Shown piece by piece: positions 31,523 to 62,931 of a DNA stretch of 64,000 nucleotides. The position numbers and the translations under genes are program-made. This stretch comes from Ceratodon purpureus (lineage: Eukaryota > Streptophyta > Bryopsida > Pseudoditrichales > Ditrichaceae), in assembly GCA_014871385.1 (NCBI GenBank), contig CM026426.1:98978861-99042860 (forward strand). The letters run 5' to 3'. Numbering within the stretch: position 1 is the first letter of the stretch; each line of letters opens with the position of its first letter. The notes beneath the pieces are model-generated. The model searched no databases, was not told where the DNA came from, and saw nothing but the letters and a program-made list of their open reading frames with translations.

Positions 31523-31569
31523 GAAGTTGAATCCCCCTTAACTTGTGAACAAAGCCTGCAACTGCCATG

Positions 31570-32057: not shown

Positions 32058-32074
32058 GCAGGAGAGATAGCAAG

Positions 32075-32160
32075 CAGGGTTGTCATAATAGATGGACAGG
32101 CCATAAAATTGTCGTGTAGTCACGTGACGGACGTGACGGACAGTTATCGGACGGACGCTT
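32075..32160 (+). repeat. Relic hAT-like terminus (CAGGGTTGTC...)
   Basis: CAGGGTTGTCATAATAGATG at 32075 resembles the left end of the complete hAT-like element at 53636 (CAGGGTTGTCTTATCGGACG). Like it, it is followed by GGACGG-type words. No matching right end with an 8-bp duplication was found, so this is an end fragment. Confidence 0.45.
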
Positions 32161-32440
32161 ATCAGACAGGTCCTCCGCGCGAGCAAAATTTTGTCCTCAC
32201 AGTTTAAAACTGTTTTCTATGGGTGGCGCCCGTCGTCGCGTCCGCGGGCGTATCTCCGCCTGCTCGCGCCTATCAGCTATGGTTGATTGCGCCGGTCGTT
32301 TGTCTCGCGCGCACGCAGTGATCGCGCCCAATTACCCTCGCCTGATCATGGGCGCCGCACCCGTAGCATAGGATCAATCTGCTCAAGCTGTTCCAGCCTG
32401 CGCGCGCCCAACCTGCACGCGTCCACACTGTCGCCGCCGT
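32160..32440. repeat. GC-rich GCGCCCG-type degenerate repeat block 1
   Basis: Words such as CTCGCGCC, GCGCGCCC and TCGCGCCCA recur at irregular short spacing. The block ends in a TATA-like box (ATTATAAC, 32442-32449) and a C-run, a layout shared with the blocks at 33103 and 51669. Confidence 0.6.
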
Positions 32441-32575
32441 GATTATAACATGCCACCCCCCTCCACTGATTTGCACCCCCCCCCCCCCACTTAATGCATT
32501 TTGCCTTCAACAGCCCGAGGGTAGCTGATTGCTTAGTGTTATGTTGGTTTCACAACAATCGTTGTACCGTCCAAC

Positions 32576-33655: not shown

Positions 33656-35336
33656 TTGAGGTTTTGGAGTAATCGTAGGCTTTTAATTATGCACTTTTGG
33701 AAGACTTCGAAGAACAATCTACCTGGAGCAGTTATGAAACAGCAACAACCGACTCCGCCTACGGAGGCAAGAGAGAGGAAAAAGCAAAAGGATGCAGGTC
33801 GAAAAGGCATGGAAACATCCAACCTAAGAGGGTTCACGTCTTAATGAATCCTGCAAAGCTGGCATTCGGAGGGTGGGAAGCCGCACCGCAACCGTGAAGT
33901 CTAGCAACGTGTGAGGAATTCATTGAATGGTGCCACATTGGTGAACAGTTTTTCCCGTTGCATCGCCATAAACAAAATCGTACTTCAAACAAGGCGAACA
34001 TGAAATGGTGCAAGAACCGTCAGTTCGGGAGGCGGTGTTTGGAGGTGTACCAGGTTCTATACGGACGGGCGATCAACGAGAGAAACGAGGTTCCGCTCTT
34101 TATCTGTAGAATGGTAAATGCCGAAGTAATGCTTCATAGACAGGTGGTTTGGAGGACCATACGGTTGACTCCTAGCGTCCAGCGGCGTCCACGAGAGATG
34201 GTGATACCTATAGAGGTCCTAAGATTTCCAGATCATGACTGGGCATACTTGGATGATCCCGAGGATCGTGCGCCTCTTGAGTGGAGTGACTCAGAACCGG
34301 ATAATGATTCTAATGGTACGGTAGACCATCCCGCTCAGTCACAAACAAAAGCAGCGACTAATGCTAGAATAACACGGTTAAAAAAGAAGGATCCTTAGCG
34401 AGCTGCGTGTTTGTCGACGAGGAATCGTGCACCGCCTGCAAATCCTACTGGAGAGGGTATTGCTCATCAGGCTCTTCTAGCAATCGTTGGGGGCCCGAGC
34501 AATGTTGATGTAGCTCCTCCTATATTGATTCCACAGATTGCGGGCCCAAGTAATGTTGATGTAGCTCCTCCTGTAATGAATCCACAGATTGCAGGCCCGA
34601 GCAATGTAATGGAAGATGATGACAATGGGTTTGCAATTGAGTTGGAGGCTACAATAGCCGCCATTGATGCCCAAGGCCAGCAAGGCGACGCATTGCGTAA
34701 CGAGCTGGAAGAAAAAAATGCGTTAATTTCTGAGATGGAGAAGACTATCCAGAACTTGTACTACAAAGCTGATAGGATGAATGAGATTATTCGGAAGCAG
34801 TATGAAGAGATTTTGCAACTTAAATTTGCAAGGAGTCCGATTAACGTACCCGAGGTGAGCCAGGCTCCAATCCCTTGTAGCCCTGGAATAAACGAGGAAG
34901 ACGTGAATGCCATCATTGAATCGGCCACGCACGATTTCCTGGAAGATACCCCGGTCCGAGTTCCCCGTAAGCCAATCATCCCATTCGCATCATCAAGTCA
35001 AGTGATGCACCCCCCAGCGGCAAATCATGTTCGTAGATTCTCAAGAGGCGGAGGACTCTTTGGGATTTTAATAGTCAGCGGTATCCACTGTCTCCAAATT
35101 GCAAGCTACCAACGGGATGCTCCGAACGTATCTGATCGAGATGAGCAGACAATACTACCAATGGAAGATTGAATGCATTCCGAACGTTGACCGTCACAGA
35201 CAGATGTACAATGAGTTCAAGAGGATTGACCACGACTACCTCAAGCTTAACTCCAAGAGAGATTTCGGACTCACGTCGTGGGCACATGAGGATGAAATGT
35301 TCCCTGACGACATACCAATGATTGGTAAGGAAATAG
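33656..35336 (+). pseudogene. RING-like protein gene, 5' part, split by a Gypsy insertion
   Basis: ATG 33656 begins a basic segment (GRKGMETSNLRGF). After a frame change near 33840 the frame reads LMNPAKLAFGGW, EEFIEWCHIGEQFFPLHRH, RRCLEVYQVLYGRAI and VPLFICRMVNAEVML, then an acidic linker, a GPSNVDVAPP repeat (three copies, about 34490-34610) and a coiled coil (about 34690-34830, NELEEKNALISEMEKTI). Lesions are a TGA at 33895-33897, a TAG at 34396-34398 and a frame change around 35050-35100. It stops at the target duplication AATAG (35332-35336). The family is not one I can name; similar multi-copy proteins may exist in charophytes. Confidence 0.5.
35332..35336. repeat. Left target-site duplication AATAG of the Gypsy element
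   Basis: AATAG immediately precedes the TGTCGG terminus and is repeated at 48702-48706. Confidence 0.95.
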
Positions 35337-36270
35337 TGTCGGAACACGGAAACGCAACTAACATCCGGATAGCGCTCTAATCGAGCGTAAACTTCCGTAC
35401 TGTCACTAGGTTCCGAGTATCGTCCAGGGATTCAATAGTGTTTCACCAAGCAGTTACTTCTAATCGTTCCGAGCCTTGCCACTGCTCGGATAGTGTCTTC
35501 GGAACGTAACTCCCGAACTATCTCCTTCTCTATTCTTCTCTCATGAGGTGTTTCGTTCACAAACCCCAACGTCTCGGATCAGTTACCGTCTCACAACTGT
35601 CCTAGAGTACTCTGGCCAGCAGGTCACACAAACGATCCTCTCCGATCCGTGGGACTACAACGACAAACCAATCCGGATCTGGGAGAACCAGGATCCGATT
35701 ATCCCTAGGCGACCCGTACCACGTTCCGACTCCCCCTCTCACTGTGCACGGAACCTCTTCAGAAGTTCAGGGAGCCCGACCAAGTAGTTCTCGATCCGCT
35801 TCGACCCTAGCGACGGCTATTCCGTATGAGGTTGATTTGAGGGCGGAACAGTGAGGCTTCACTCCTACGACAATCCGCTAAATCTTTCCGCTCAATCCCA
35901 TTTCCTTTCCGGTTCGGGTCTCGTTGCAACTCCCATCACCTTCCTATCCGAGCTACAGCGGAACTCTCATATCCTTCCCGGATCATTCACACTTAGCGGG
36001 AAATCACGCACAGTACTTACGAAACACAAATACTTTACTGATAAGGATTATAGGGGGAAAACATGCAAAACGAAGACCCGGATCACATCGCCTGCCCGGT
36101 TTAAGTAAGCAGGGGCTTCCACAAAAGTGGCGGCGCCGGCAGTTCAATCAAAACCCTAATCCCTAACTATCTACCTAGAAATTTACTTTACGACAAGAAC
36201 GGATCCTCCGATCCGGAATCTACTCCTATAAATCCGGAAAGTTACGACAAGTGGCAGTGAGAGGAATCTA

Positions 36271-38466
36271 TCACTTCTTTGTCTTCTTGTGGCTCTCCTG
36301 CTCGCGATCCTTCGACCTGGTCACCCGCGGCTCTGATCCGCCCGCCCCTGCTGCTCGTGCCGCCTTGCGCCTAGCACTCCGTTCCGCCTTTGACTCTCTC
36401 TCCTGAGCCTCCAAGGACAACCGGGTAACGATCCGGGGTTTGGGAGAATTGGGCGATTTCGGAATCATATGTGCGGGAGGAGTTCCGGACGTCGGAGTCT
36501 GAGTTTCAGTTCCGGTGGTCCTGACCGGAGAGCTCCCATGTGTCTCTGAGTCGGACTCGGAAATTGTAATCGGTTCCTTCCTTTTCCGCAACCTCCGGAA
36601 CTCACCGGCAGTGTTCGGAGGGGAACCTGCTGCTGGCGTTCCGGTGGGAGTAGGCGTCACCGTTCCGGTCTTGGCTGTGGGTGAAGGGGTCAATCCCCCC
36701 TCCTGAGTTACTCGGGTCCGTCCGGGTGGTGAAATAGGTCGTCCCCATTCCGGTCCCGCTGCCTCCCCTCGGTACTTCGCTATGATCACTTCATCTCCGA
36801 GTCGTGGAAGAACATCCGGCGGCACGGTCCGAGTCACCTGTTCCGAAACCGTCCTCTCCTCGATCCGCCTCTCGGTGACTGTCGTTCCGGTCACTTGCAC
36901 CTGTCCGGTGGGGATCGCGCAGCTCTGCTGGACTGTACTGGTTCCGGGTGACGCCGCCTGTGCTTGGACTTCCCGGATCGCCTCCGCAATCGTCCGATTT
37001 GTCATGGCGGCCTCTTCGACCGTCATCTGTTCTGCTGCTTGGAGGTTACTCCCTATCGGGGTTCGGAACCCAACCCCGCGAGATTCTCCTACCACGGCAC
37101 GAGAGGGCGATCCGGGGAGCGGAAGACCCCGGCCAGCGCCTACGAGACTGGGACTTCCGGTGCTCGGATTGAGTAGCTGCCGGACCTTCTTCAGGATCAT
37201 GTTCATCGAGTGCTCGCATTTGGAGAGGATCTTGATGATCTTCTGCTTGTCCTCGAAATCAGCCGGCTGCACTACGTTCTCATCGAATAGCCGGGCCTTG
37301 TTGATTACCGCTCCCGAACTTCCCACCAACTTCCGAAGCTCCCCCAAAGTCTCCTCCTGCTCGGCGTGGAACTTACGGATCTCGTCACTCTTCGCCGCCA
37401 GCTCCTTCGTCAACTCCTGCAACTGAAGCTCCAGCCGCTTCTTCTCACTCCGGAGAGTTGGGGCATCCTTCAACAACTCCACTTCTTGGATCACCTCTTC
37501 CGGTAAGCACCCTCCCAGCGCTGTACAGACCCTCCGGAACAGGGTTTCGATCCGATCGTAAGAAGCTTGAGCCCGATGAGTCTCCTCCCGAATCCCCCGA
37601 AACAGGTCCACCGGAAATCCCCGATCGGAACTGACCTCTCTCCGTTCCGGATCTCCCCGGGCCGTAGACGGTTCCGCATGTCGTGACGCTGGCTGCTCCG
37701 ATCTCGATCTGGACTGAGCCCTAGCAGCGCCAGGGTTCGGAACCTCCCTCGTATCGTCCTCATCTTCCGAGTCCGTTGTATCAGAGGGCTCACCTCTCGG
37801 ATCGGGTTCCATTCCGGGCGGAATCTCCGAGAAGTTGAGGCAGTTCTTCGCGTGCGTGTACGTCTCGTCCTCCTTATCGGTCAGCAAGTCATACGTATGG
37901 TAAAGGTGAAAGAGGTAAGGGGAGAGTGGGGTCGGCTTCTTTCCGATCGTCGGAACCATCTTCTGCACCACTTCCGCCATGAGTGCAGCCCAATTCACCG
38001 GGCGTTCTCCTGTATACGCTCCGAGGATGGTATTCCCGACCGTAATGGTGACTTGTGCCGGTTTCTGCGGATACAGGATCGGAACGAGGAAAGCTAAGAC
38101 CTGCCTCTGCCTCCTATCCTTGCAGGCGTCTATCTCGTATCCATTGTTCCTATGGATCTTCCCGTGGAACCTATCCTGCACGTACTGGTCCGTCCGGGTC
38201 GCCCAAAGGAGTCCCTTCTGCTCGAAACCGTAAGCTTCCGCCCACTGTTCCGCATTCCACAGCGTGGGCTTGCCTCGGACCGTATTATCCCACCGGTTGT
38301 CCGGACCCTCCAGGACCTCCCTCACCATCACCTCACTTTTCAGTAACCACGGCCGTGCCAACAATCCCTCACACCTCATCCGAGTGAGGTCGGTGATCAG
38401 TTCCTCCATATCCGATTCCTTCACTGGAGTTCCGGGGCTAAGGACGCAACACTGTACGCGCGCCAT
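36271..38466 (-). CDS. LTR-encoded protein, 731 aa, copy in the 3' LTR
   Basis: Complete frame from ATG 38466 to TGA 36271-36273. Residues 20-200 are the domain shared with the other LTR-ORFs: LITDLTRMRCEGLLARPW, NTVRGKPTLWNAEQW with AYGF, CKDRRQRQVLAFLVPILYP, TGERPVNWAAL, YLFHLYHTYDLLT. An acidic linker follows (DTTDSEDEDD), then a coiled coil (about 340-390, EKKRLELQLQELTKELAA), a second conserved block with INKARLFDEN, a Gly/Ser/Thr-rich low-complexity region and a basic end (SARRKAARAAG ... KKTKK). No catalytic motif, signal peptide or membrane segment is visible. Location inside an LTR is highly unusual. A structural, RNA-binding or silencing-countering role is possible but unsupported. 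Confidence 0.9.
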   Translation of the reverse strand: MARVQCCVLSPGTPVKESDMEELITDLTRMRCEGLLARPWLLKSEVMVREVLEGPDNRWDNTVRGKPTLWNAEQWAEAYGFEQKGLLWATRTDQYVQDRFHGKIHRNNGYEIDACKDRRQRQVLAFLVPILYPQKPAQVTITVGNTILGAYTGERPVNWAALMAEVVQKMVPTIGKKPTPLSPYLFHLYHTYDLLTDKEDETYTHAKNCLNFSEIPPGMEPDPRGEPSDTTDSEDEDDTREVPNPGAARAQSRSRSEQPASRHAEPSTARGDPERREVSSDRGFPVDLFRGIREETHRAQASYDRIETLFRRVCTALGGCLPEEVIQEVELLKDAPTLRSEKKRLELQLQELTKELAAKSDEIRKFHAEQEETLGELRKLVGSSGAVINKARLFDENVVQPADFEDKQKIIKILSKCEHSMNMILKKVRQLLNPSTGSPSLVGAGRGLPLPGSPSRAVVGESRGVGFRTPIGSNLQAAEQMTVEEAAMTNRTIAEAIREVQAQAASPGTSTVQQSCAIPTGQVQVTGTTVTERRIEERTVSEQVTRTVPPDVLPRLGDEVIIAKYRGEAAGPEWGRPISPPGRTRVTQEGGLTPSPTAKTGTVTPTPTGTPAAGSPPNTAGEFRRLRKRKEPITISESDSETHGSSPVRTTGTETQTPTSGTPPAHMIPKSPNSPKPRIVTRLSLEAQERESKAERSARRKAARAAGAGGSEPRVTRSKDREQESHKKTKK

Positions 38467-38617
38467 CTCTACTCCTCACTTCTCTCCCTCTACGATCCGA
38501 CAGCAAGAAACCCGGCAATCCAACTGCCGGTGAATCGGAAAAGACAAGGACACCTCACCGCTCTTTCACTCTCTACTTCCAGTTCGCAAAAAGGAACTCC
38601 AAACCCTAACACCCTCG

Positions 38618-38625
38618 CTTATATA
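38618..38625 (-). promoter_or_regulatory. TATA box in the 3' LTR
   Basis: Sense-strand TATATAAG (in GGGGTATATAAGCG) lies about 150 bp upstream of the LTR-ORF ATG at 38466. The same site is present in the 5' LTR. Confidence 0.65.
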
Positions 38626-38990
38626 CCCCAGGCATAATAAACGCTGTGGCGGCCCGTCATTGCAGCCGCCAACGTACCGGGGTAAACGCCTATCCGAGTC
38701 ATGATGACTTCCGCGTCGCTTCGGATCCTTGACGCGGTTACAGTAACGGTCAGTACTCGGATCGTCCACCCGTTCCGTATCTTATCTTCCGAGTTTCCGG
38801 AATCCAGGTTCCGGGAACACTTCCTATGTTAACTGTTTTATCGTTTCTGGAGTATCCGATTTGCGTTAACTGCTAATGCTGCTAGTGTCTGGCCAGTTTC
38901 TACCTAATTAACCAAAAAAATGAAAAATAAATGGAATACTTACGCCGGCTGGGGCTCTTCCGGTTTATTCTGAGTGTCTCGGATCCCACA

Positions 38991-39003
38991 TTACCCCATT
39001 TTC
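38991..39003 (-). other. Polypurine tract of the Gypsy element
   Basis: Sense GAAAATGGGGTAA directly precedes the TG of the 3' LTR. It is a short, slightly imperfect purine run in the correct place to prime plus-strand synthesis. Confidence 0.55.
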
Positions 39004-39026
39004 AAATGTGAGAGTCCCCGCGAACA

Positions 39027-42000
39027 CTATTCTTCTTCCTCCCCTTCCGGGCTTTCGCTTCCTTCGGTGTCTGTGAACTCCTCAGGGTTGTAATTTTTCA
39101 CTCGGGATCCGTTCACCCGGGTTTCGAAGCTATTTCCCTGGAGGTCCGCCAGTTGTAATGATCCGTTCTCAAAGATCCGCGTAACCCGGTAAGGTCCCAT
39201 CCATCTCGTATGTAACTTTCCCGGAAACTTTTGGTGCCGATTATCGTATAAGAGCACCAAGCCTCCTTCTATCACCTTATTGTCCTTAGGAATTCTTTTG
39301 TCGTAGGTCTCCTTACGTTTTGCCTGGACATCTACGGCGTGCTGTAGAGCGCCTCTCCTGACTTCTTCCAGATCCTGTAATGCCACGATCCGGTACCCCG
39401 GATCCTCGACTCTCGTCCCGTGACGGGCAGCCATAACCCGTAAGGTTTCTACCTCCAACTCCACTCCGTGAACTGCGGATTGTCCAAAAACTAGGAAGAA
39501 AGGACTCTTACCCATGGTTTTCTTCTCGCTGGTATTGTAGGCGTGTACAGCTGAAGGGAGCTTCCGATCCCAATCCGTCTTATGAGCCGAGACCATCTTG
39601 TTCAGAATCTTTCCGACGATGCCATTAGCTCGTTCCGTCAGTCCATTCGCTTTCGGATTATAAGGGGTCGTCTTCCGGTGCTTGATGAGATACCGTTCCG
39701 TGATATTGATGATGACATCGTTTAGGAAATGTTTTCCCCGGTCACTCACCAGTTCTAACGGATGTCCAAATCTCATCATTATTTCTTCAAAGAGAAATGT
39801 GGCTGCGGCCGCGGCGTCATTCTTCACCGTTGCTCTTGCCTCTACCCATCTGGTCGCATAATCCGTAGCCAGGATAATGTATCTCCTCTTCCGGGCTGTG
39901 ACCGGATTGATCGGTCCGATAAAGTCTATCCCCCATTTTTCAAACGGAGCCAAGGGAATAATGGGAGTGAGGGGCCAGTGGTTCCGGAACGAGGGTGCCC
40001 CGGTTCTTTGACATTGGTCGCACTGCCCTACAAATTCCTTCACGTCCCGGGAGAGGTAAGGCCACCAATATCCGGCTGATCGGATCCGCTTGATGGTTGT
40101 TTCCGAGGCGAAATGGCCGCCCGAGGGTCCGGCGTGTAAGGCCCTCATGACCTGCCTTCTTTCGGATTCCTCGAGGCACCTGCGTAACACATCATCCGGT
40201 CCCATCCGGAAAAGTACTCCGCGGATCAGTGTGAAAGGAGCTACTGTATTCTGAAATACCATCTTCTCCTCCCGCGTAAATCCCTCCGGGTACCTCCGTT
40301 GGGTTAAATACTGGATAATTTCCGAATAATCGGAGTTCTCCGTTCCGGAAATATGAAATACCTCCGCCTCTTCCGGAAACTCATCCGGAAACGTGGCGGT
40401 GATGTCCGAAACTGCTTCCGGGCCTCGCATCCTTGACAGGTAGTCAGCGTTGGCATTGGCCTTACCCGGTTTCACTACTACCTCGTAGTTGAATTCCTGG
40501 AGCAGCAAGATCCATCGTGCAATACGCCCTGAGAGATCCGGTTTGTTCACCAAATACTTCAGGGAGTCATGATCCGTATGGAACACGATCTTGTATCCGA
40601 GAAGGTAGTGTCGGAACTTCTTGCAGGCGTAAACTACCGCCAAGGCTTCCCGTTCAGTGGTAGTATATTTCCGTTCCGCAAGGCTCATCTGCCTGCTAGC
40701 ATAATAGATCGGGTGCTCCTTCCGATCCTCCCCTTGCTGCCACAGAATCGCCCCTAGGCACCACCCGGAAGCGTCGATTGTCACATGGAATTCCTTCGAC
40801 CAATCCGGTGCTGATAGGATCGGAGCGGTGGTCAGGGCCTTCTTCAGTTCCTCGAACGCCTGCTGTCTCCGTTCCGTCCACAAAAATTCTTCTTCCTTCT
40901 TCAACAGTTCCGTTAATGGGGCTGCCAATTTGGCATACGCAATAATAAACCTCCTGTAATATCCGACGCATCCTAGGAATCCCCGGACCTCTCGGACGTT
41001 GGTGGGAGACACTAGAATGAGGATAGCTCGTACCTTATCCGAATCGACTTCCAACCCGTTCCGACTTACGATGTGCCCGAGAAGAATTCCGGAAATCATC
41101 CCCATAAAACATTTTCCGGGGTGTAATTTCAGTCCGGTTTCCCTGCACCTCTGGAAGGTCCTTCGGAGGTACTCGAGATGTTCCTTCCACTTACTGAACA
41201 CCGCGAAGTCATCGATGAAGACTTCTAGAAAATGCCTCAAGAAATCTCGGAAAATATCCACCATCAGCCTTTGGAATGTTCCGGGAGCGTTACACAGTCC
41301 GAAGGGCATTCTGTTGAAGGCGAACGTCCCCCATTCCGTGGTGAAGGTCGTCTTCAGCTGATCTTCTTCCCGGATCGACACCTGATTGTAACCGGAAAAT
41401 CCATCGAGAAAGCTGTAGCACTCCTGCCCTGCCACGTGATCGAGGATAATGTCCGTAAAAGGTAATGGAAAGTAATCCTTCTTTGTGGCCGCATTCAGTT
41501 TCCGAAAATCTTGACAGACTCGGATCTTGACTTTCCCATCCGAGCCAACCTTCTTCGGGACGACGACTATGGGCGATACCCACTCGGAATTATTTACTAG
41601 ATAAATGAATCCGGCTTTCAGGAGGCTATCGATCTCTTCTTTCACCATCAGAGAGTACTTCGGGTTGAGCCTGTACTGGCGTTGTCTGACCGGAACTGAT
41701 CCGTCAACCAAGTCTATATGATGTTGGCCGAGTTCCGGAGGTATCCCCTTGAGGTCGGATGGTGACCAAGCGAATACGTCTAAATATTCCTTTAGTAAAT
41801 CCACATACTCCTTTCTCTGCTCCTTGCTCATGCTTCGCCCTAGCAGAAATGTCTTTCCGGGGGCCACCTCCACCTTCTCATAGTCGGATAGTTTCACAAC
41901 GTTCTTGACTCGTTCCGATTCCTGTTCCTCTCCCTGATCCGTCCATGCGCTCCACACCCAGACAGGAGTGTCCGGATCGAGACCCATGGCGGGCAGGTTT

Positions 42001-43172
42001 CCCTCCTCGACCTGTTGTCGGAACCATTCGGCTGAGAGTGGAACACTTCCTTCTCCGAGAGAGCGATCCTCCGGTACCGGGAATTTCACGTGCTCCGATG
42101 ATGGTTGGGGTTGCTCACTGATCGGATTATGAAATCGGAAGTCATCCTCGGTAACTTCCGAGAACTGATTCACGAAATAACTAAATACTTCGTCATCCTC
42201 CTCTTCCGGGTCGGACCAATCAGACGTATACCCATCCGAGCCACTGGTTTCCCCTAGATATCCATCCATCTTCCACGGAATCCGCTGATTGGTTTTTCCG
42301 AGTACGAACTCCTTGGCTCCCCAATCAACGAGGACTCGTGCCATGTATAGCCAGGGTCTTCCCAACAACATCGGAAAGGGACGGCCCGTACTAACTCGGA
42401 TTATCACGAAATTCAAGAGGTATGTTACCTCTCCGATCGTGGTCGGAACCTGGGACAACCTTCCCACGGGTTTAACTCTAGATTGATCCGCCATTCGTAA
42501 CACTTGATCGGTGGATTCGAACGAGGTGTATCCGAGTTCAAAGGCCGTATCTTCCAGCATCAGGTTCACACCGGATCCTCCATCTACCGGAACTTTCGGT
42601 ATAGCACATCCTTCTATTAGCACCGTCAGTTCCGGGGCTCCGTGATCCTCAACCTGTAAGAAGTTAGTAGCTACAGACGGAAGCTTCACCCCTCGGCGCC
42701 TCCGCTTCGTCCATGCCTCTCGGATTACCTTCTGGTAATTCACATTGTCATGGAGCAACTGTCCAATCGTGACATTTGCCTTGAGGGATTTGATGTCCCC
42801 AAGAATGTCATACTCGTCCACTCTGGGATCGGAAGGAATAACCACCGGAACGTCATCAAACCGGACCGAAGGCTTGGTGATCTTCCGGGCAGTGGGATCC
42901 GTGAGTTCTTTCCGAACTTCCTCACTGATATCTTCCGGGAGGTTCCCTCCTTCCACCCCATTTTCAGCTCTTGGACGGTCATTTTCTGCTGGTAAAGCTC
43001 TGGTTACCGTAGAGGGTTCGGATCCCGAATCCGAATCCACTCTCCTGGATCTTACCCTCCTCCTGGTCTTCCGGGATTTCGGCAGCTCCGGTTCCTGGGC
43101 ACGTTCTCTAGCGGAACTACGGGTTGATACTCTGTGTACTGGTACTTCCGCGCCCTCCTGTAGTTCCGTCAC
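39027..43172 (-). CDS. pol: Gypsy Pol polyprotein (protease, RT, RNase H, integrase)
   Basis: 1381 codons in the same frame as gag, following its UGA. Domains: protease with VDGGSG (Asp 197) at about 185-290; RT about 500-700 with QDFRKLNAAT, MPFGLCNAPGTFQ and the catalytic FIDD at 652-655; RNase H about 790-915 with TIDAS (Asp 800), Glu 842 and HTDHDS (Asp 867); integrase with HHCC zinc site (His 1013, His 1020, Cys 1051, Cys 1054) and a catalytic D1083, D1144, E1180 triad in exact D60D35E spacing; then a GPY/F-like module (LHTRWMGPYRVTRIFENGS). No chromodomain is evident; the C-terminus is acidic. All key residues are present and the frame is unbroken to TAG 39027-39029, so the element may still be active. 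No ATG is needed if made by readthrough. Confidence 0.97.
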   Translation of the reverse strand: MTELQEGAEVPVHRVSTRSSARERAQEPELPKSRKTRRRVRSRRVDSDSGSEPSTVTRALPAENDRPRAENGVEGGNLPEDISEEVRKELTDPTARKITKPSVRFDDVPVVIPSDPRVDEYDILGDIKSLKANVTIGQLLHDNVNYQKVIREAWTKRRRRGVKLPSVATNFLQVEDHGAPELTVLIEGCAIPKVPVDGGSGVNLMLEDTAFELGYTSFESTDQVLRMADQSRVKPVGRLSQVPTTIGEVTYLLNFVIIRVSTGRPFPMLLGRPWLYMARVLVDWGAKEFVLGKTNQRIPWKMDGYLGETSGSDGYTSDWSDPEEEDDEVFSYFVNQFSEVTEDDFRFHNPISEQPQPSSEHVKFPVPEDRSLGEGSVPLSAEWFRQQVEEGNLPAMGLDPDTPVWVWSAWTDQGEEQESERVKNVVKLSDYEKVEVAPGKTFLLGRSMSKEQRKEYVDLLKEYLDVFAWSPSDLKGIPPELGQHHIDLVDGSVPVRQRQYRLNPKYSLMVKEEIDSLLKAGFIYLVNNSEWVSPIVVVPKKVGSDGKVKIRVCQDFRKLNAATKKDYFPLPFTDIILDHVAGQECYSFLDGFSGYNQVSIREEDQLKTTFTTEWGTFAFNRMPFGLCNAPGTFQRLMVDIFRDFLRHFLEVFIDDFAVFSKWKEHLEYLRRTFQRCRETGLKLHPGKCFMGMISGILLGHIVSRNGLEVDSDKVRAILILVSPTNVREVRGFLGCVGYYRRFIIAYAKLAAPLTELLKKEEEFLWTERRQQAFEELKKALTTAPILSAPDWSKEFHVTIDASGWCLGAILWQQGEDRKEHPIYYASRQMSLAERKYTTTEREALAVVYACKKFRHYLLGYKIVFHTDHDSLKYLVNKPDLSGRIARWILLLQEFNYEVVVKPGKANANADYLSRMRGPEAVSDITATFPDEFPEEAEVFHISGTENSDYSEIIQYLTQRRYPEGFTREEKMVFQNTVAPFTLIRGVLFRMGPDDVLRRCLEESERRQVMRALHAGPSGGHFASETTIKRIRSAGYWWPYLSRDVKEFVGQCDQCQRTGAPSFRNHWPLTPIIPLAPFEKWGIDFIGPINPVTARKRRYIILATDYATRWVEARATVKNDAAAAATFLFEEIMMRFGHPLELVSDRGKHFLNDVIINITERYLIKHRKTTPYNPKANGLTERANGIVGKILNKMVSAHKTDWDRKLPSAVHAYNTSEKKTMGKSPFFLVFGQSAVHGVELEVETLRVMAARHGTRVEDPGYRIVALQDLEEVRRGALQHAVDVQAKRKETYDKRIPKDNKVIEGGLVLLYDNRHQKFPGKLHTRWMGPYRVTRIFENGSLQLADLQGNSFETRVNGSRVKNYNPEEFTDTEGSESPEGEEEE

Positions 43173-43175
43173 GAA

Positions 43176-43181
43176 CCGTCA
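43176..43181 (-). promoter_or_regulatory. Gag-pol UGA-CGG stop, probable readthrough site
   Basis: Gag ends AAA-TGA and the next codons CGG TTC GTG ACG stay in frame into pol. UGA followed by CGG is one of the known leaky contexts used by several plant viruses for readthrough. The context and frame are seen directly; readthrough itself is inferred. Confidence 0.7.
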
Positions 43182-44849
43182 TTTGTCCGGATTCTCTATC
43201 CCACCCGAGTGACCGTAGTTTAGCCCAGTCATCTCTCTCGGAGGGACCTCCACCTGTTTGAAAGTCGGGCGGGGTTGTGCCGGTTTGGCACACTGAGGAG
43301 CCGTATGACCGTACTCTCCGCAATTTTGGCACGGAAGGATCCGCAGTGCTCCCTGCCCCTGTCGCTCAAACGGACAGTTAGGTGCGTAATGATCCGGGCT
43401 CCCACAGTTGAAGCAGTACCCGTGGGTCGGCTTTGGGTACATCGGCCTACCCGGAACGTTCTGTGGGATCCGGTATCCGGCGGGAGGACGGGCTATCTGG
43501 ATCGGAGCCTTCCCCCGTCCGTAAGTGGTCTGAACCTGATATACAGGTTGGTACTCCTCCATCTGAAACTCTTCCTCTTCCGGATAGGCAAAGTATACTT
43601 CTTCTTCCGGATGGACGTAGTGGATACGTTTCTGGCGGGGTTCAGTACACTCCGGAGGATAATGTCCTTGCTTTCCGCAGTTAGCACACCACACATTAGC
43701 TCTGCTGGTGGGAATCATCTTACGAGGTTTCCGATTCTCGGAAAGGTGGACGTTGAGTTCGGCAATCGATTCTCGGATCTCCTTCATCTCCTTCATGACC
43801 TTCCGAGAATCGTCATCCTCCACCTTCACCTTGATCAACTCTCGGTTCCGTCTAGGCCGGGAGTCTCTACTGGAGCCCCCTCGGCGTTTCGAGGCTCCCC
43901 TGGAGTCCTCTTCCGACTGATCGGAACTGGATGAAGTGGAATCGCTCTTACTGGTAGAGTCGGAATCTTCCGAAGAGGATTCGTGCCTCCGCCGGCGCTC
44001 TCTCTCCTTCCGGATTTTCTTACCCCGCTTCTCGGTATGCTTCAGAGACTTCCGTAGAGATTGGGCCGAGTTCTCATAGTTCTGAGCCGCTTCCACGGCT
44101 TCCTGAAGTGTGGCGGGACGGGTTTGTCGGATCTGAAACCCCATCTCCTCTGGGAATCCGGCGACAAACCATTCCACTTGTACACTCGGGGCTATGGCCG
44201 TAGTGAGTTTCTGTATGAGCGCCTTTACCCTCTGACTGTACTTCCGTACTGACTCGGAAGATCTCATCGTCATCCGACTCAGCTTTCCGAGTGCGCGAGC
44301 TTCTCCTCCGGCCTCACGGAACGTACGTCGGAACAAGGTCACGAAACTGGTCCAGTCGTTACGTGTACGTTCCGGAACGTCTTGGTACCACTGGAGAGCT
44401 TCTCCCTTCAGAAGACCCAGGAATATCCTCCTCTTCGCATCCGGATCTTCCTGATTGGCCAGAGCGATGGATTCGAACTCACAGAGCCATTCGTCCACGT
44501 CTTGACTTCCGTCCCCTTTGAATCTGTTGTACTTCAGTCGGGTAGAGGGTGCCATTGGATTGTCTTCCTCGTCTTCTTCCTCTTCCTCGGTCTCCTCTTC
44601 TACTCCTGCGTCGGCTCCGACTTCGTCAGCTACGACCTCTTCTTCTTCCGGATCTGGAGCTGTACCTGCTCCGGCTGTGGAGGTTCCGGCCAACGACACC
44701 ACGATTACGTCTCCTTCTCGTTCTACAGCAGTCTGGATCCGGGGAAGTAGATTCGTTCCCGGTAGATCGTGTACCAAAACTCTTCCCCTCTTCTGTAGCA
44801 ACCGAGTGGATCTTCTTCCCCCTAACTCTTCCGGTTGCGCCCCAACCAT
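43179..44849 (-). CDS. gag: Gypsy Gag (capsid and three zinc knuckles)
   Basis: First ATG at 44849 (CCATGG context) gives 556 codons; the same frame is open 50 codons further upstream without an ATG. An acidic region (EETEEEEEDEED) precedes the retrotrans_gag domain at about 105-240 (YNRFKGDGSQDVDEWLCEF, LLKGEALQWYQDV, SVRKYSQRVKALIQKL). An Arg/Ser-rich linker is followed by three CCHC knuckles (CX2CX4HX4C) at about 388-401, 479-492 and 507-520 (CANCGKQGHYPPEC, CFNCGSPDHYAPNC, CQNCGEYGHTAPQC). It packages element RNA in cytoplasmic particles. It ends at UGA 43179-43181, two codons before the GTG that opens pol in the same frame. Confidence 0.95.
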   Translation of the reverse strand: MVGAQPEELGGRRSTRLLQKRGRVLVHDLPGTNLLPRIQTAVEREGDVIVVSLAGTSTAGAGTAPDPEEEEVVADEVGADAGVEEETEEEEEDEEDNPMAPSTRLKYNRFKGDGSQDVDEWLCEFESIALANQEDPDAKRRIFLGLLKGEALQWYQDVPERTRNDWTSFVTLFRRTFREAGGEARALGKLSRMTMRSSESVRKYSQRVKALIQKLTTAIAPSVQVEWFVAGFPEEMGFQIRQTRPATLQEAVEAAQNYENSAQSLRKSLKHTEKRGKKIRKERERRRRHESSSEDSDSTSKSDSTSSSSDQSEEDSRGASKRRGGSSRDSRPRRNRELIKVKVEDDDSRKVMKEMKEIRESIAELNVHLSENRKPRKMIPTSRANVWCANCGKQGHYPPECTEPRQKRIHYVHPEEEVYFAYPEEEEFQMEEYQPVYQVQTTYGRGKAPIQIARPPAGYRIPQNVPGRPMYPKPTHGYCFNCGSPDHYAPNCPFERQGQGALRILPCQNCGEYGHTAPQCAKPAQPRPTFKQVEVPPREMTGLNYGHSGGIENPDK

Positions 44850-45014
44850 GGAAGAGATTGGGAATTCTTCTTCCGATTCCTCGGAAGGCAAGATCTGCAC
44901 GTAAGACTTCCGCCTACCGCATATCCACCTGAATGAAGCCTTCACGGTCTGACTCCACTTTTCTTCAAATCTGCGCTCACTTATCTTCCGAGTATCCACC
45001 TGGTTCGCAGCTTA

Positions 45015-45037
45015 TCGAATCCCCGGCAGCAGCGCCA
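45015..45037 (-). other. Primer binding site complementary to a tRNA 3' end
   Basis: The plus strand reads TCGAATCCCCGGCAGC followed by AGCGCCA. This is a tRNA T-arm 3' half, acceptor strand and CCA end, so the element RNA is complementary to about 23 nt of a tRNA. It begins ten bases inside the 5' LTR border. I do not assign the isoacceptor. It is not the usual initiator-Met primer. Confidence 0.8.
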
Positions 45038-45981
45038 GATTTTTACGTGTCGGAACACAAAAACGCAACTAACATCCGGATAGCGCTCTAATCGAGCGTA
45101 AACTTCCGTACTGTCACTAGGTTCCGAGTATCGTCCAGGGATTCAATAGTGTTTCACCAAGCAGTTACTTCTAATCGTTCCGAGCCTTGCCACTGCTCGG
45201 ATAGTGTCTTCGGAACGTAACTCCCGAACTATCTCCTTCTCTATTCTTCTCTCATGAGGTGTTTCGTTCACAAACCCCAACGTCTCGGATCAGTTACCGT
45301 CTCACAACTGTCCTAGAGTACTCTGGCCAGCAGGTCACACAAACGATCCTCTCCGATCCGTGGGACTACAACGACAAACCAATCCGGATCTGGGAGAACC
45401 AGGATCCGATTATCCCTAGGCGACCCGTACCACGTTCCGACTCCCCCTCTCACTGTGCACGGAACCTCTTCAGAAGTTCAGGGAGCCCGACCAAGTAGTT
45501 CTCGATCCGCTTCGACCCTAGCGACGGCTATTCCGTATGAGGTTGATTTGAGGGCGGAACAGTGAGGCTTCACTCCTACGACAATCCGCTAAATCTTTCC
45601 GCTCAATCCCATTTCCTTTCCGGTTCGGGTCTCGTTGCAACTCCCATCACCTTCCTATCCGAGCTACAGCGGAACTCTCATATCCTTCCCGGATCATTCA
45701 CACTTAGCGGGAAATCACGCACAGTACTTACGAAACACAAATACTTTACTGATAAGGATTATAGGGGGAAAACATGCAAAACGAAGACCCGGATCACATC
45801 GCCTGCCCGGTTTAAGTAAGCAGGGGCTTCCACAAAAGTGGCGGCGCCGGCAGTTCAATCAAAACCCTAATCCCTAACTATCTACCTAGAAATTTACTTT
45901 ACGACAAGAACGGATCCTCCGATCCGGAATCTACTCCTATAAATCCGGAAAGTTACGACAAGTGGCAGTGAGAGGAATCTA

Positions 45982-48177
45982 TCACTTCTTTGTCTTCTTG
46001 TGGCTCTCCTGCTCGCGATCCTTCGACCTGGTCACCCGCGGCTCTGATCCGCCCGCCCCTGCTGCTCGTGCCGCCTTGCGCCTAGCACTCCGTTCCGCCT
46101 TTGACTCTCTCTCCTGAGCCTCCAAGGACAACCGGGTAACGATCCGGGGTTTGGGAGAATTGGGCGATTTCGGAATCATATGTGCGGGAGGAGTTCCGGA
46201 CGTCGGAGTCTGAGTTTCAGTTCCGGTGGTCCTGACCGGAGAGCTCCCATGTGTCTCTGAGTCGGACTCGGAAATTGTAATCGGTTCCTTCCTTTTCCGC
46301 AACCTCCGGAACTCACCGGCAGTGTTCGGAGGGGAACCTGCTGCTGGCGTTCCGGTGGGAGTAGGCGTCACCGTTCCGGTCTTGGCTGTGGGTGAAGGGG
46401 TCAATCCCCCCTCCTGAGTTACTCGGGTCCGTCCGGGTGGTGAAATAGGTCGTCCCCATTCCGGTCCCGCTGCCTCCCCTCGGTACTTCGCTATGATCAC
46501 TTCATCTCCGAGTCGTGGAAGAACATCCGGCGGCACGGTCCGAGTCACCTGTTCCGAAACCGTCCTCTCCTCGATCCGCCTCTCGGTGACTGTCGTTCCG
46601 GTCACTTGCACCTGTCCGGTGGGGATCGCGCAGCTCTGCTGGACTGTACTGGTTCCGGGTGACGCCGCCTGTGCTTGGACTTCCCGGATCGCCTCCGCAA
46701 TCGTCCGATTTGTCATGGCGGCCTCTTCGACCGTCATCTGTTCTGCTGCTTGGAGGTTACTCCCTATCGGGGTTCGGAACCCAACCCCGCGAGATTCTCC
46801 TACCACGGCACGAGAGGGCGATCCGGGGAGCGGAAGACCCCGGCCAGCGCCTACGAGACTGGGACTTCCGGTGCTCGGATTGAGTAGCTGCCGGACCTTC
46901 TTCAGGATCATGTTCATCGAGTGCTCGCATTTGGAGAGGATCTTGATGATCTTCTGCTTGTCCTCGAAATCAGCCGGCTGCACTACGTTCTCATCGAACA
47001 GCCGGGCCTTGTTGATTACCGCTCCCGAACTTCCCACCAACTTCCGAAGCTCCCCCAAAGTCTCCTCCTGCTCGGCGTGGAACTTACGGATCTCGTCACT
47101 CTTCGCCGCCAGCTCCTTCGTCAACTCCTGCAACTGAAGCTCCAGCCGCTTCTTCTCACTCCGGAGAGTTGGGGCATCCTTCAACAACTCCACTTCTCGG
47201 ATCACCTCTTCCGGTAAGCACCCTCCCAGCGCTGTACAGACCCTCCGGAACAGGGTTTCGATCCGATCGTAAGAAGCTTGAGCCCGATGAGTCTCCTCCC
47301 GAATCCCCCGAAACAGGTCCACCGGAAATCCCCGATCGGAACTGACCTCTCTCCGTTCCGGATCTCCCCGGGCCGTAGACGGTTCCGCATGTCGTGACGC
47401 TGGCTGCTCCGATCTCGATCTGGACTGAGCCCTAGCAGCGCCAGGGTTCGGAACCTCCCTCGTATCGTCCTCATCTTCCGAGTCCGTTGTATCAGAGGGC
47501 TCACCTCTCGGATCGGGTTCCATTCCGGGCGGAATCTCCGAGAAGTTGAGGCAGTTCTTCGCGTGCGTGTACGTCTCGTCCTCCTTATCGGTCAGCAAGT
47601 CATACGTATGGTAAAGGTGAAAGAGGTAAGGGGAGAGTGGGGTCGGCTTCTTTCCGATCGTCGGAACCATCTTCTGCACCACTTCCGCCATGAGTGCAGC
47701 CCAATTCACCGGGCGTTCTCCTGTATACGCTCCGAGGATGGTATTCCCGACCGTAATGGTGACTTGTGCCGGTTTCTGCGGATACAGGATCGGAACGAGG
47801 AAAGCTAAGACCTGCCTCTGCCTCCTATCCTTGCAGGCGTCTATCTCGTATCCATTGTTCCTATGGATCTTCCCGTGGAACCTATCCTGCACGTACTGGT
47901 CCGTCCGGGTCGCCCAAAGGAGTCCCTTCTGCTCGAAACCGTAAGCTTCCGCCCACTGTTCCGCATTCCACAGCGTGGGCTTGCCTCGGACCGTATTATC
48001 CCACCGGTTGTCCGGACCCTCCAGGACCTCCCTCACCATCACCTCACTTTTCAGTAACCACGGCCGTGCCAACAATCCCTCACACCTCATCCGAGTGAGG
48101 TCGGTGATCAGTTCCTCCATATCCGATTCCTTCACTGGAGTTCCGGGGCTAAGGACGCAACACTGTACGCGCGCCAT
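45982..48177 (-). CDS. LTR-encoded protein, 731 aa, copy in the 5' LTR
   Basis: Same protein as at 36271-38466 with a single residue change seen (Arg for Gln in EEVI-R-EVELL, codon near 47196). ATG 48177, TGA 45982-45984. In this copy the ORF would be the first cistron of the full-length element RNA: promoter, LTR-ORF, primer binding site, gag-pol. Gag would then need internal initiation, reinitiation, splicing or a second promoter. Both copies being intact may reflect youth, since reverse transcription makes the LTRs identical, so it is not by itself proof of selection; the conservation in distant LTRs is better evidence. Confidence 0.9.
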   Translation of the reverse strand: MARVQCCVLSPGTPVKESDMEELITDLTRMRCEGLLARPWLLKSEVMVREVLEGPDNRWDNTVRGKPTLWNAEQWAEAYGFEQKGLLWATRTDQYVQDRFHGKIHRNNGYEIDACKDRRQRQVLAFLVPILYPQKPAQVTITVGNTILGAYTGERPVNWAALMAEVVQKMVPTIGKKPTPLSPYLFHLYHTYDLLTDKEDETYTHAKNCLNFSEIPPGMEPDPRGEPSDTTDSEDEDDTREVPNPGAARAQSRSRSEQPASRHAEPSTARGDPERREVSSDRGFPVDLFRGIREETHRAQASYDRIETLFRRVCTALGGCLPEEVIREVELLKDAPTLRSEKKRLELQLQELTKELAAKSDEIRKFHAEQEETLGELRKLVGSSGAVINKARLFDENVVQPADFEDKQKIIKILSKCEHSMNMILKKVRQLLNPSTGSPSLVGAGRGLPLPGSPSRAVVGESRGVGFRTPIGSNLQAAEQMTVEEAAMTNRTIAEAIREVQAQAASPGTSTVQQSCAIPTGQVQVTGTTVTERRIEERTVSEQVTRTVPPDVLPRLGDEVIIAKYRGEAAGPEWGRPISPPGRTRVTQEGGLTPSPTAKTGTVTPTPTGTPAAGSPPNTAGEFRRLRKRKEPITISESDSETHGSSPVRTTGTETQTPTSGTPPAHMIPKSPNSPKPRIVTRLSLEAQERESKAERSARRKAARAAGAGGSEPRVTRSKDREQESHKKTKK

Positions 48178-48328
48178 CTCTACTCCTCACTTCTCTCCCT
48201 CTACGATCCGACAGCAAGAAACCCGGCAATCCAACTGCCGGTGAATCGGAAAAGACAAGGACACCTCACCGCTCTTTCACTCTCTACTTCCAGTTCGCAA
48301 AAAGGAACTCCAAACCCTAACACCCTCG

Positions 48329-48336
48329 CTTATATA
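48329..48336 (-). promoter_or_regulatory. TATA box in the 5' LTR
   Basis: Sense TATATAAG about 150 bp upstream of ATG 48177. It would drive the full-length transcript and the LTR-ORF. Confidence 0.65.
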
Positions 48337-48701
48337 CCCCAGGCATAATAAACGCTGTGGCGGCCCGTCATTGCAGCCGCCAACGTACCGGGGTAAACGC
48401 CTATCCGAGTCATGATGACTTCCGCGTCGCTTCGGATCCTTGACGCGGTTACAGTAACGGTCAGTACTCGGATCGTCCACCCGTTCCATATCTTATCTTC
48501 CGAGTTTCCGGAATCCAGGTTCCGGGAACACTTCCTATGTTAACTGTTTTATCGTTTCTGGAGTATCCGATTTGCGTTAACTGCTAATGCTGCTAGTGTC
48601 TGGCCAGTTTCTACCTAATTAACCAAAAAAATGAAAAATAAATGGAATACTTACGCCGGCTGGGGCTCTTCCGGTTTATTCTGAGTGTCTCGGATCCCAC
48701 A

Positions 48702-48706
48702 AATAG
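48702..48706. repeat. Right target-site duplication AATAG of the Gypsy element
   Basis: AATAG follows the CCCACA terminus, matching 35332-35336. Confidence 0.95.
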
Positions 48707-49622
48707 ATTGGACGCAGTTGGAGTGGGAGTACAAGACCGCCAAACCTACTGAGAAGACCCCTGAGAATAGTAATATACAGCCAAGATTGCTCTGGCCCAA
48801 TCCACCAAAGTATGTGTTGGATGGAACCAAGTGTCCCGTTTGTAACAATCCATTTGGGCCAGAGGGGGGCTGGTCATTGAAATCCTGTCAGTGCATGTAT
48901 CATCCACAATGCTTGATTTCCCAAGACATGATACGTCGGTGGTGTGCACTATGTAAGGCCCCCTTACACAAGCGTTTTTATGAGCAGTTCGACTTAGCGA
49001 CCTGGATGCCACCGCATTGGGAGCATATAAAGAAAATACTCTTGACTTTCCGGACAAGTCGGGTGAGGACTTGATTTGGAATTGGCTTATGGAAATGCAC
49101 CAGACCTATGCTAAAGAAATGAGCGCGCAGTGGGGGTGGGATCAGGATCCTGCGGAGATTGTAAGGATCTGCCACGAACTCATCAGGGGCAGGACAGACG
49201 ACGAACTCGAGGGAAGGAGGAATTTCTTCTACCAAGTGCTACGAGGGCACTGGGATGTTCAAACCAATACATTCCAGTACGGCGCCCATCCTCTTGGATT
49301 TAGGTGGAATTCCAAAGGGAAGATGGTGGTGGATCTGCACAAGGAGTTGCACGAAATGACACAAGAGGAACTCCAGATCGCTAATGACTTACAAGCCGCG
49401 GAATCTGAATGGGATATATTGTTCAAGGCTCAAGCCGTAGATTTCCTATGCGCGCAACATACCCTGAACACCCTAACAGTGCTCCGTCGAATGCGCGACA
49501 ACAACTTCATGGAAGCAATGCTTGGAGGAGATGGCATAGCGAAGAGATCCTGTTCTGCAAAGCGGAAACTCATCGCTAGCGATTGGGCAGAAAGTAGTGC
49601 GGCGGGGAGCTCTCGTGCATGA
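48707..49622 (+). pseudogene. RING-like protein gene, 3' part
   Basis: The frame interrupted at 35336 resumes as DWTQLEWEYKTAKPTEK. It then carries a zinc-finger of RING-like spacing, CPVCNNPFGPEGG ... CQCMYHPQCLI ... RRWCALCKAPL, that is CxxC, CxCxxH, C and CxxC. A frame change near 49015-49030 leads to YKENTLDFPDKSGEDL and a helical region up to TGA 49620-49622 with a Ser/Ala-rich end. RING-type domains usually bind E2 enzymes or act as zinc scaffolds; in this multi-copy, decayed gene the role is unknown. The exact frame match across AATAG proves it is the other half of 33656-35336. Confidence 0.55.
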
Positions 49623-50049
49623 CACGATGAGGGTGGATCGAGTTCCTCTGCATTGGGCACGTGACGTCGTGGGGATCCATGAGTGAAGACCACGTTTTGT
49701 AAAAAGATGTCGGAATATAAATACATGTAGAAGGCATAGGGAATTGGATAGGTTTAGGATTACATTCACATGTTTAATATTTGTTAAACTCAAACAATGT
49801 ATGTTAATTTTCTTCCCGGAATCATTGTTGTGGTTCCCAAGACGCTTTTATTCTCCCTACATTGGTCTCCCGTTTTTTGATTGCCAAACATGTTGTCCAT
49901 TCCGTCTGTTGTCTCTTCTACTTCCATCATATTATAAGTGTATAAATAACTCTGGTGCACAAAAAAATGTTTTGCATGGTAAGTGGATTTAAGTCGCGGT
50001 AAGAAAATTTAATTTATGGTAAGTGTATTTAAGGTGTAGACTGGACTTT
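49623..50049. other. No gene seen
   Basis: AT-rich spacer with a few GGTAAG-TGGATTTAAG repeats near 49975-50060 (three short tandem-like copies). No ORF of note. Confidence 0.5.
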
Positions 50050-50074
50050 ATGTTACGTGGATTTGAACCGTGGA

Positions 50075-50460
50075 CCCGCCCGCATGCACGCGCCCGTAGT
50101 GTGCGTGCCCGCGCACGCGCACAGTAGTCCCCGGCGAGAACACTCTTCTATGTACTGACGAACGCGTCCGTACGCGCGCGCGCAAACTGCTTGCGCCCAT
50201 CGATTGACGTGCGCGCGCACGGATACCGAATAGTGGAAACTCATTCTCCCCTCCACAATGTCTCTCGCGTTCTGCTCGCGCCCCATGTTGCACGCGCCCG
50301 GCTGCTCGCGCACAAGCACAAGCACTGCAATCGTATCATGCAACTAATTTCTCCCCTCGAACTCCCTCTTTCCATTTGCACGCGCCCGCCAGTGCTTGCG
50401 CCCGTTTTGCACGCGCCCGCCGATGCTCGCGCCTGTTTTGAACTCGCCCGAGCACTCCAA
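50075..50460. repeat. GC-rich GCGCCCG-type degenerate repeat block 3
   Basis: Repeated CACGCGCCCG, GCTCGCGCC and TTGCGCCCG words. No TATA-like box follows; the block passes into CT-rich duplicated DNA. Confidence 0.65.
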
Positions 50461-50479
50461 CAAGATCACTGAAATAATT

Positions 50480-50701
50480 TTTCTAATTCCACCACTCCCC
50501 CATCCTATCACCTTGTTTTTATTTGTTACTCCTACACACTTTAATTTGTTTTTTTTTCTTTTCTCCTTCTTAGAACGCCATGCTTTCATTTAATTCCTTC
50601 GCTCATTTCGTCCGTTCATTTTTCTAGTTCCACCACTCCCCCATCCTATCCCCTTGTGTTTATTTAATACTCCTACACTCTTTAATTTGTTTTTTCCTCT
50701 C
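50480..50701. repeat. Two-copy tandem duplication (period about 142 bp)
   Basis: Phrases TTCCACCACTCCCCCATCCT, CACTTTAATTTGTTTTTT and others occur at about 50480-50565 and again at 50622-50701 with small changes. Confidence 0.7.
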
Positions 50702-50877
50702 AAGGTTAACATTATTTTATAATTTGAATGCGTATTCGATTTTTTTATTTTTTTTACTTTTAGTTCCACCAATCTCCCATTGTAATGAATTATATTTCAC
50801 TTTAGTCCATACTCTCCCTTGATTTTTGATAATTTTATTTTTTTTGAACTTCCAGTATGCGTGCTATTTTAATTCAT

Positions 50878-51182
50878 TGCGCGCGCCTGTACGATCGCGC
50901 CTGTTCTTCCGCGCCTGCAGGCGCCCGCGCGATTGCTTCCGCGGTCGCCCCATTGGACCTGCCCACACGCGCACGCACCCGCCCACGCTCGCCCGCGCCC
51001 GCAAGTACTCGCGCGCGCCCGCATTCCACGCGCAATCGCGAGCCCGCCCAACTGCTCGCGCCCTGCTCGCGCCCAACCGTTCGTGCCCAACTGCTCTTGT
51101 GCGACTGCTCGCGCGCGAGTGCTTGCGCCCGTCCCCCACTACGCCGCGTGCGCGCGCGCTTGTGGTTTTGACTGGATTAACG
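50878..51182. repeat. GC-rich GCGCCCG-type degenerate repeat block 4
   Basis: Dense GCGCCCGC, CTCGCGCCC and GCCCGC words; all frames are open or nearly so because of composition. The apparent Arg/Ala/Pro-rich ORFs are not credible genes. Confidence 0.7.
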
Positions 51183-51264
51183 CGGTAACTTGAAAAATTT
51201 ATCTCATAGTTTTAGTTAACTCTGCCCGAGGTTAGCTTAAAACGACTTACCTTCCACTGAGAGG

Positions 51265-51640
51265 GCAGACACACGGAGAGCCTTTGGACCACTTGCCCCA
51301 GTTCTTAGTCATGTGTGAAGGGGTGAGTCATTGACAGGCTTCAATTGTGTCTCAATCTTATAACTAAATAGGATTCCCCTTATTTTTTAAAGATGTTAAC
51401 CTATATAGAGCTCAAACATTCTAAGTATCTAAATTTTTTTTCATTTTTTTCATCTAAATAAAGAGCCAGTGGACCACGTGCTCTAGTTCTTAGACATGTG
51501 TGAATGGAGTGGGTAGTTCTCTGGCTTCTCTCATGTGTCACAATCTGAAATCTAAATAGGATTCCTCTTATTTTCTGTAGATGTTCACGTGTTTGTAGTT
51601 CACACACTTTAATTTTTTTAAATTTTATTCATTTTTAACT
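51265..51640. repeat. Two-copy diverged tandem duplication (period about 183 bp)
   Basis: GGACCACTTGCCCCAGTTCT ... CTAAATAGGATTCCCCTTAT (from about 51281) recurs as GGACCACGTGCTCTAGTTCT ... CTAAATAGGATTCCTCTTAT (from about 51470). Confidence 0.7.
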
Positions 51641-51668
51641 CTCATTGTAATTTCTTCTCAGTGAATTG

Positions 51669-52030
51669 AGCGCGCCAAATCGATCTCGCTTGTCTCCTTG
51701 CAATCGCTTGTGCGCGCCCGCACTCAACCGCCAGTGCGTGCCCGCGCCTGCATTCGCCCGTCAGTGTCCGCCCGCGCTCGCACGCTTCGTCTCGTCTACG
51801 CTCGTGCGCACAACACATCGCGCACGCACCCACTCGCCCTCCAGCGCTCGCGCCCGCATGCGCCCGCCCCTACCCGTCTTTCCTCGCGCGCACACGATCC
51901 GCCACGCGGCCTGCAATCTCGCATACCCACCTGCGCCTGCCCGTTCGCTTCGGAGCGCGCCCGATCTCCTGGTGCGCGCGCGCCCGTTGGATCCCGCCCG
52001 TCCGGACAGTACTCGCTCGGTCGAGGGCGG
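51669..52030. repeat. GC-rich GCGCCCG-type degenerate repeat block 5
   Basis: Words such as GTGCGCGCCCG, CCCGCGCTCGC and GCTCGCGCCCG repeat. As at 33103 the block ends in a TATA-like box (52034) and a C-rich stretch upstream of a coding unit. Confidence 0.7.
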
Positions 52031-52033
52031 CAG

Positions 52034-52041
52034 TATATAAA
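52034..52041 (+). promoter_or_regulatory. TATA box downstream of GC-rich block 5
   Basis: TATATAAA lies just after the block, about 245 bp upstream of the ATG at 52285. Confidence 0.45.
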
Positions 52042-56450: not shown

Positions 56451-56523
56451 TCGGCTAGTTCCGGGCCAGTGGCCGGGATCGCAATGGATAGCAACAGCTC
56501 GGAGATGCGAGATCGCTTGGCGG

Positions 56524-62928: not shown

Positions 62929-62931
62929 TGG

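Follow-up and report, generated by a model that had tools for sequence, protein, structure and literature searches.

What might a complete gene inside a long terminal repeat (LTR) do for the retrotransposon that carries it? The question is raised by a Ty3/gypsy element in a 64,000-nucleotide stretch of Ceratodon purpureus DNA (assembly GCA_014871385.1, contig CM026426.1, forward-strand positions 98,978,861 to 99,042,860), which we call the window and number from its first letter. Both LTRs of this element hold a 731-codon open reading frame (ORF), the LTR ORF, which is a well-supported, LTR-resident gene that is neither gag nor pol. To our knowledge, all known LTR-resident genes are retroviral, such as sag of mouse mammary tumour virus (MMTV), and our literature searches on ORFs inside or beside LTRs listed no plant or algal case. 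We asked whether the gene is real, what its product resembles, and which short words in the element it might read. Coordinates are given in Table 1.

A preliminary description of this stretch had proposed that each of the two 3654-bp LTRs carries the complete ORF in sense orientation. Both copies are indeed intact. They occupy LTR positions 525-2720 of 3654, in the sense of gag-pol and wholly inside the repeat; only a silent change and an R/Q exchange distinguish them. Chance can be excluded as the origin of such a frame: the probability of meeting no stop in 731 codons, calculated from the base composition of the LTR ORF itself, is 1.2e-12, and the longest ORF in 1000 LTRs simulated with a second-order Markov model spans 322 codons (mean, 139). 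Codon usage agrees with that of gag-pol best in the ORF's own frame (r 0.73, versus 0.33-0.64 in the other five frames).

The ORF had also been credited with its own upstream TATA box, and this holds as well. TATA[AT]A occurs exactly once per LTR, and the next ATG after it is that of the ORF. If transcription begins at this TATA box, as we infer, the LTR ORF would be the first cistron of the transcript. Ribosomes would then meet the 731-codon ORF, and nine AUGs besides, before the gag AUG, so that gag could be translated only by way of splicing, reinitiation, internal entry or a different promoter. MMTV sag is likewise a complete gene inside an LTR, but it is a different protein, a superantigen of an animal retrovirus; it lies in U3 and is expressed from the 3' end. 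The LTR ORF comes after the TATA box, a position that suggests that it is not expressed in the sag manner.

The element that hosts this gene is complete and young. Its LTRs start with TGTGGGATCC, finish with CCGACA, and differ from each other at 5 of 3654 positions; its primer binding site would pair with a tRNA-Asp-like end. A single UGA, followed by CGG, divides the 556 codons of gag from pol in one shared frame (gag stop at 43179-43181). This arrangement suggests readthrough rather than frameshifting, and UGA CGG is a readthrough context of plant viruses. In pol, the integrase follows RNase H according to the order of Pfam matches, and the protease region was assigned by eye only. No chromodomain is found among the seven Pfam families matched in pol, a feature shared with the OTA (Athila/Tat) superclade. 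Together with the primer binding site, this would tentatively point to a host among plants or streptophyte algae.

The LTR ORF protein comprises an N-terminal domain (N-domain), a coiled coil and a basic tail, all of which had been anticipated, and no enzyme domain was recognised in it, which supports the earlier claim of a product without an enzyme signature. Two diverged homologues, loci A and B, lie in the window, and neither is adjoined by gag or pol matches in the same orientation within the 64 kb. At least 50 relatives, many of them partial, were found in databases (scoring covered the best 8000 and 7999 candidates). Among the matches listed, one relative is 97% identical, one is 56% identical over the full length, and one partial protein is 76% identical; the remainder are about 29-48% identical over the aligned part, and several database clusters are many-membered (up to 166). 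We inspected 28 of the 50 relatives at the sequence level, and profiles A3, A4 and A5 comprise 28, 33 and 37 rows, the other sequences being left out. All rows have in common an N-domain of about 200 residues, partial in some, with 11 invariant positions in A5. An acidic linker and the coiled coil are present in the longer rows, and the full-length rows add the basic tail. Judging from these sequences, the LTR ORF family is a real gene family. Whether its members evolve neutrally, with dN/dS (the ratio of nonsynonymous to synonymous divergence) near 1, had been put forward as a decisive point. We found the opposite: between the LTR ORF and locus A, dN is 0.58-0.60, dS is 1.8-2.6 and dN/dS is about 0.23-0.33 over 202 N-domain codons, as estimated by two methods from this one pair, with dS near saturation. 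The 97% relative departs from the LTR ORF protein at 8 of the 432 residues that make up the first part and at 14 of the 299 tail residues (Fisher p 0.045). The LTR ORF looks to be under purifying selection, strongest in the N-domain.

Profile searches and structure prediction had been recommended for the N-domain. Among 10 proteins, none matched Transposase_32, the plant mobile domain, Athila ORF-1 or Transposase_28 above the cut-off. Transposase_32 (PF20167), a putative plant transposon protein, aligned weakly with the N-domain of locus A, one of the 10 proteins, over profile positions 19-167 of 177; this likeness (E 0.3, 11.4 bits) is far below the curated cut-off of 45. The predicted fold of the N-domain seems to resemble VANC21, its closest match, which is a DNA-binding protein whose structure was solved together with its target DNA. 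VANC has DUF1985/DUF287, and no such match was seen for the LTR ORF family: neither was found up to E 10 in the 10 proteins, which were mostly N-domain pieces in a search where HMMER filters drop most weak matches, nor among the 25 of 40 families listed for 28 proteins.

Accessory ORFs as such have precedents in plant elements. Rice Retrosat2, RIRE3 and RIRE8 resemble the present element as described: their LTRs are about 3 kb or longer, and an additional ORF of unknown function, ORF0, precedes gag-pol. In the passages that bear on it, ORF0 is given as upstream of ORF1, with no LTR location stated (PMC3485330). Non-chromovirus gypsy elements of the plant OTA group also carry accessory ORFs of unknown function (plant mobile domain, Transposase_28, Athila ORF-1), but these are described, in the sections concerned, as internal and mostly between pol and the 3' LTR, whereas the LTR ORF is in the LTR (PMC6317226, PMC7264820).

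The predicted fold directs attention to VANC and its hosts in Arabidopsis, the VANDALs, which are MULE-type DNA transposons. Binding of VANC21 to a short motif in the element that encodes it leads to loss of DNA methylation at that element, and the motifs of VANC6 differ from those of VANC21 (PMC5735166, PMC10398659). Prompted by the VANC literature, we scanned for over-represented short words and found CGGA. Over one LTR and the interior together (9711 bases), this word and its complement number 316, with 197 on the sense strand and 119 on the other. Dinucleotide composition predicts 78 and 54, and the two strands are thus about equally enriched (2.5-fold and 2.2-fold). Ranked among 136 tetramers (135 where one was absent), CGGA comes first in the noncoding DNA of the LTR (z 7.2) and also, relative to synonymous-codon shuffles, in the LTR ORF (z 7.2) and in gag-pol (z 11.3). 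Gag (z 5.9) and pol (z 9.7) are each enriched separately, and six control ORFs have z of -0.4 to 1.2. At locus A, CGGA ranks 4 in the ORF and 1 in the flanks; at locus B, it ranks 2 in both. Six control regions, one of them a gypsy relic lacking an LTR ORF, have ranks of 49-92 and absolute z values below 1. With a trinucleotide background, CGGA still ranks first in the noncoding LTR (z 3.2) and in the interior (z 6.2).

The limits of the enrichment follow those of the element. A change-point search with two boundaries, run solely on the positions of CGGA in 20- or 40-base steps, returned 35340-48720, which is nearly exactly the element. Locus A lies in an island at 25900-30460 and locus B in one at 57860-61600; allowing 3 log units, the first island starts at 24980-26360 and ends at 29880-32500, and the second starts at 57580-58220 and ends at 60880-61960. 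The island of locus B agrees with a candidate LTR around this locus, and it is possible that both loci are solo LTRs of related families. Few CGGA sites are common at homologous positions (element and A, 2; element and B, 3; A and B, 1), so most arose independently in each lineage. The preceding base is mostly C or T in the element, most often G at locus A, and mostly C at locus B (p 1e-16), and A or T follows in 43 of 45 noncoding LTR sites; the form in the element is YCGGAW. As far as the VANC accounts go, the two systems share an accessory protein encoded by a transposable element, an element enriched in a short motif, and a motif variant that changes between related families. They differ in that the host of VANC is a DNA transposon, whereas the LTR ORF sits within the LTR of a retrotransposon. 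In the same accounts, the VANC motif lies in noncoding tandem arrays, whereas CGGA is dispersed through coding and noncoding DNA, with just four short, low-score arrays.

Our favoured reading, which we put a little short of an even chance, is that the LTR ORF is an accessory gene for a VANC-like protein that binds CGGA-type sites and counters silencing of the element. Starting from the gene, its position, its conservation and the motif enrichment, all observed, and from the modelled likeness to VANC21, we infer promoter use, nuclear location, DNA binding, CGGA recognition and anti-silencing. Transcription of the gene would start from the TATA box within the LTR, and translation from the first AUG. 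Its product would be nuclear and non-enzymatic, with a VANC-like N-domain, self-association via the coiled coil, and a basic tail. It would bind YCGGAW sites spread over its own element family and, once bound, counteract host silencing and so protect or reactivate that family. Because the gene sits in the LTR, it is duplicated at every insertion and would stay complete in solo LTRs, and each LTR, solo ones included, would be both source and target. A more ambitious form of this proposal seems less likely than not: a class I element with anti-silencing built into its LTRs, in which a VANC-like gene under its own promoter has element-wide targets that include coding DNA, solo LTRs keep producing and responding, and gene and motif diverge together between subfamilies. 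The preliminary description had left packaging, chromatin targeting and anti-silencing as candidate functions; the data favour the last, in that the predicted fold seems close to VANC21 and CGGA is dispersed and exceeds its expectation on either strand.

Other explanations have to be weighed against this one. A product that recognises the element RNA and serves in the particle, as an RNA chaperone or in packaging, with CGGA as an RNA packaging signal, would suit the sense-strand excess of the word, the coiled coil and basic tail, and a possible place of the LTR ORF as first cistron of the genomic RNA. We consider it improbable, since the excess nearly vanishes once each strand is compared with its dinucleotide expectation, the nearest fold binds DNA, and the gag of this element already has three zinc knuckles. 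An accessory role of another kind (for example activating the LTR promoter in trans, aiding the translation of gag, or targeting integration), with CGGA unrelated, is unlikely, though less so than packaging. A helper of translation or transcription could solve the problem posed by gag lying so far behind the TATA box, and protein and motif are linked by co-occurrence only (three loci versus six controls); on the other side are the apparent likeness of the model to VANC21 and a density of CGGA that extends over the whole element, beyond the vicinity of the promoter. The motif may also be read by Gag, integrase or a host protein, or by nothing.

Several results weigh against anti-silencing through CGGA and in favour of the word being a by-product, read by no protein, of biases of this lineage in mutation, reverse transcription or composition. 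CGGA emerged from scanning rather than from a prior prediction, and coding and noncoding DNA are both enriched. With the trinucleotide background, it falls to third place in the LTR ORF and fourth at locus A, and at locus B the signal disappears (rank 94) and CCGG is in excess instead; the control region 48702-57000 climbs to rank 15 (z 2.2). Yet a single motif with sharp flanks dominates, its flanking base varies between loci, and an unrelated gypsy relic in the window is not enriched (rank 53, z 0.3), so that we regard a pure by-product as rather improbable too. Very unlikely, in our view, is a host gene family of which one member was captured into an LTR. The isolation of locus A from gag and pol and the many database relatives carried on long contigs would fit such a history; the many-membered clusters, the LTR-sized CGGA islands around both homologues, and the candidate duplication and LTR ends at locus B speak against it.

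Table 1. Features of the element and its homologues in the window
Feature	Position	Strand	Basis or remarks
Complete Ty3/gypsy LTR retrotransposon	35337-48701	minus	LTR pair, TG..CA ends, CTATT duplication, primer binding site, polypurine tract, gag and pol domains
5' LTR, 3654 bp	45048-48701	minus	Differs from 3' LTR at 5 positions
3' LTR, 3654 bp	35337-38990	minus	Differs from 5' LTR at 5 positions
CTATT target duplication, 5 bp	35332-35336 and 48702-48706		Flanks of the element
TATA box TATATAAG, 5' LTR (LTR 366-373)	48329-48336	minus	Sole TATA[AT]A in LTR
LTR ORF, 731 codons, 5' LTR copy	45982-48177	minus	LTR 525-2720; homologues
LTR ORF, 731 codons, 3' LTR copy	36271-38466	minus	LTR 525-2720
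LTR ORF N-domain, residues 1-215	47533-48177	minus	Predicted VANC21-like fold
Primer binding site TGGCGCTGCTGCCGGGGA	45020-45037	minus	10 nt inside 5' LTR end
gag, ends UGA CGG	43179-44849	minus	Pfam; Retrotrans_gag and three CCHC knuckles
pol: reverse transcriptase, RNase H, integrase	39027-43178	minus	Pfam; gag frame, after UGA
Polypurine tract GAAAATGGGGTAA	38991-39003	minus	Directly ahead of 3' LTR
Locus A, intact homologue, 629 codons	26830-28719	plus	In CGGA-rich island
Locus B, homologue of 624 codons broken by 3 in-frame stops, with basic tail	58301-60175	plus	In CGGA-rich island
Candidate solo LTR around locus B, 3526 bp	57711-61236	plus	TGTGG..CA ends, AGCAC duplication; one of 5 candidates in range searched

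The surroundings contain further repeats. The gypsy relic is a piece of pol on the minus strand (62379-63999) that ends at the window edge and lacks CGGA enrichment; its longer piece is 43% identical to the pol of the element. Plus-strand ORFs flank the insertion (34576-35172 and 49089-49622), and the element may have inserted inside a gene or another transposon. A minus-strand ORF at 14951-15607 includes GDIEQNPGP, presumably the 2A-like peptide known from some long interspersed nuclear elements (LINEs), and the ORFs at about 13.4-20.6 kb may be part of a LINE. Self-alignment revealed a tandem array at 21183-22482, in which copies of a unit near 116 bp are roughly 81-85% alike, and direct and inverted repeats 75-88% identical (approximate values) cluster at 53869-55360. 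The highest observed/expected CpG of the window (1.37-1.55) is at 50001-52000, which is rich in GCGC and CGCG.

If confirmed, the favoured reading would show a VANC-like strategy in an element class, and at a location, that are both new for it. Sequence-specific anti-silencing would then extend beyond the VANDAL DNA transposons and into LTR retrotransposons. The reading would also provide one reason for very long LTRs and explain how solo LTRs persist as active genes. Protein and motif would form a readable pair whose coevolution can be traced, and the case would hint at what further orphan ORFs of retrotransposons may do.
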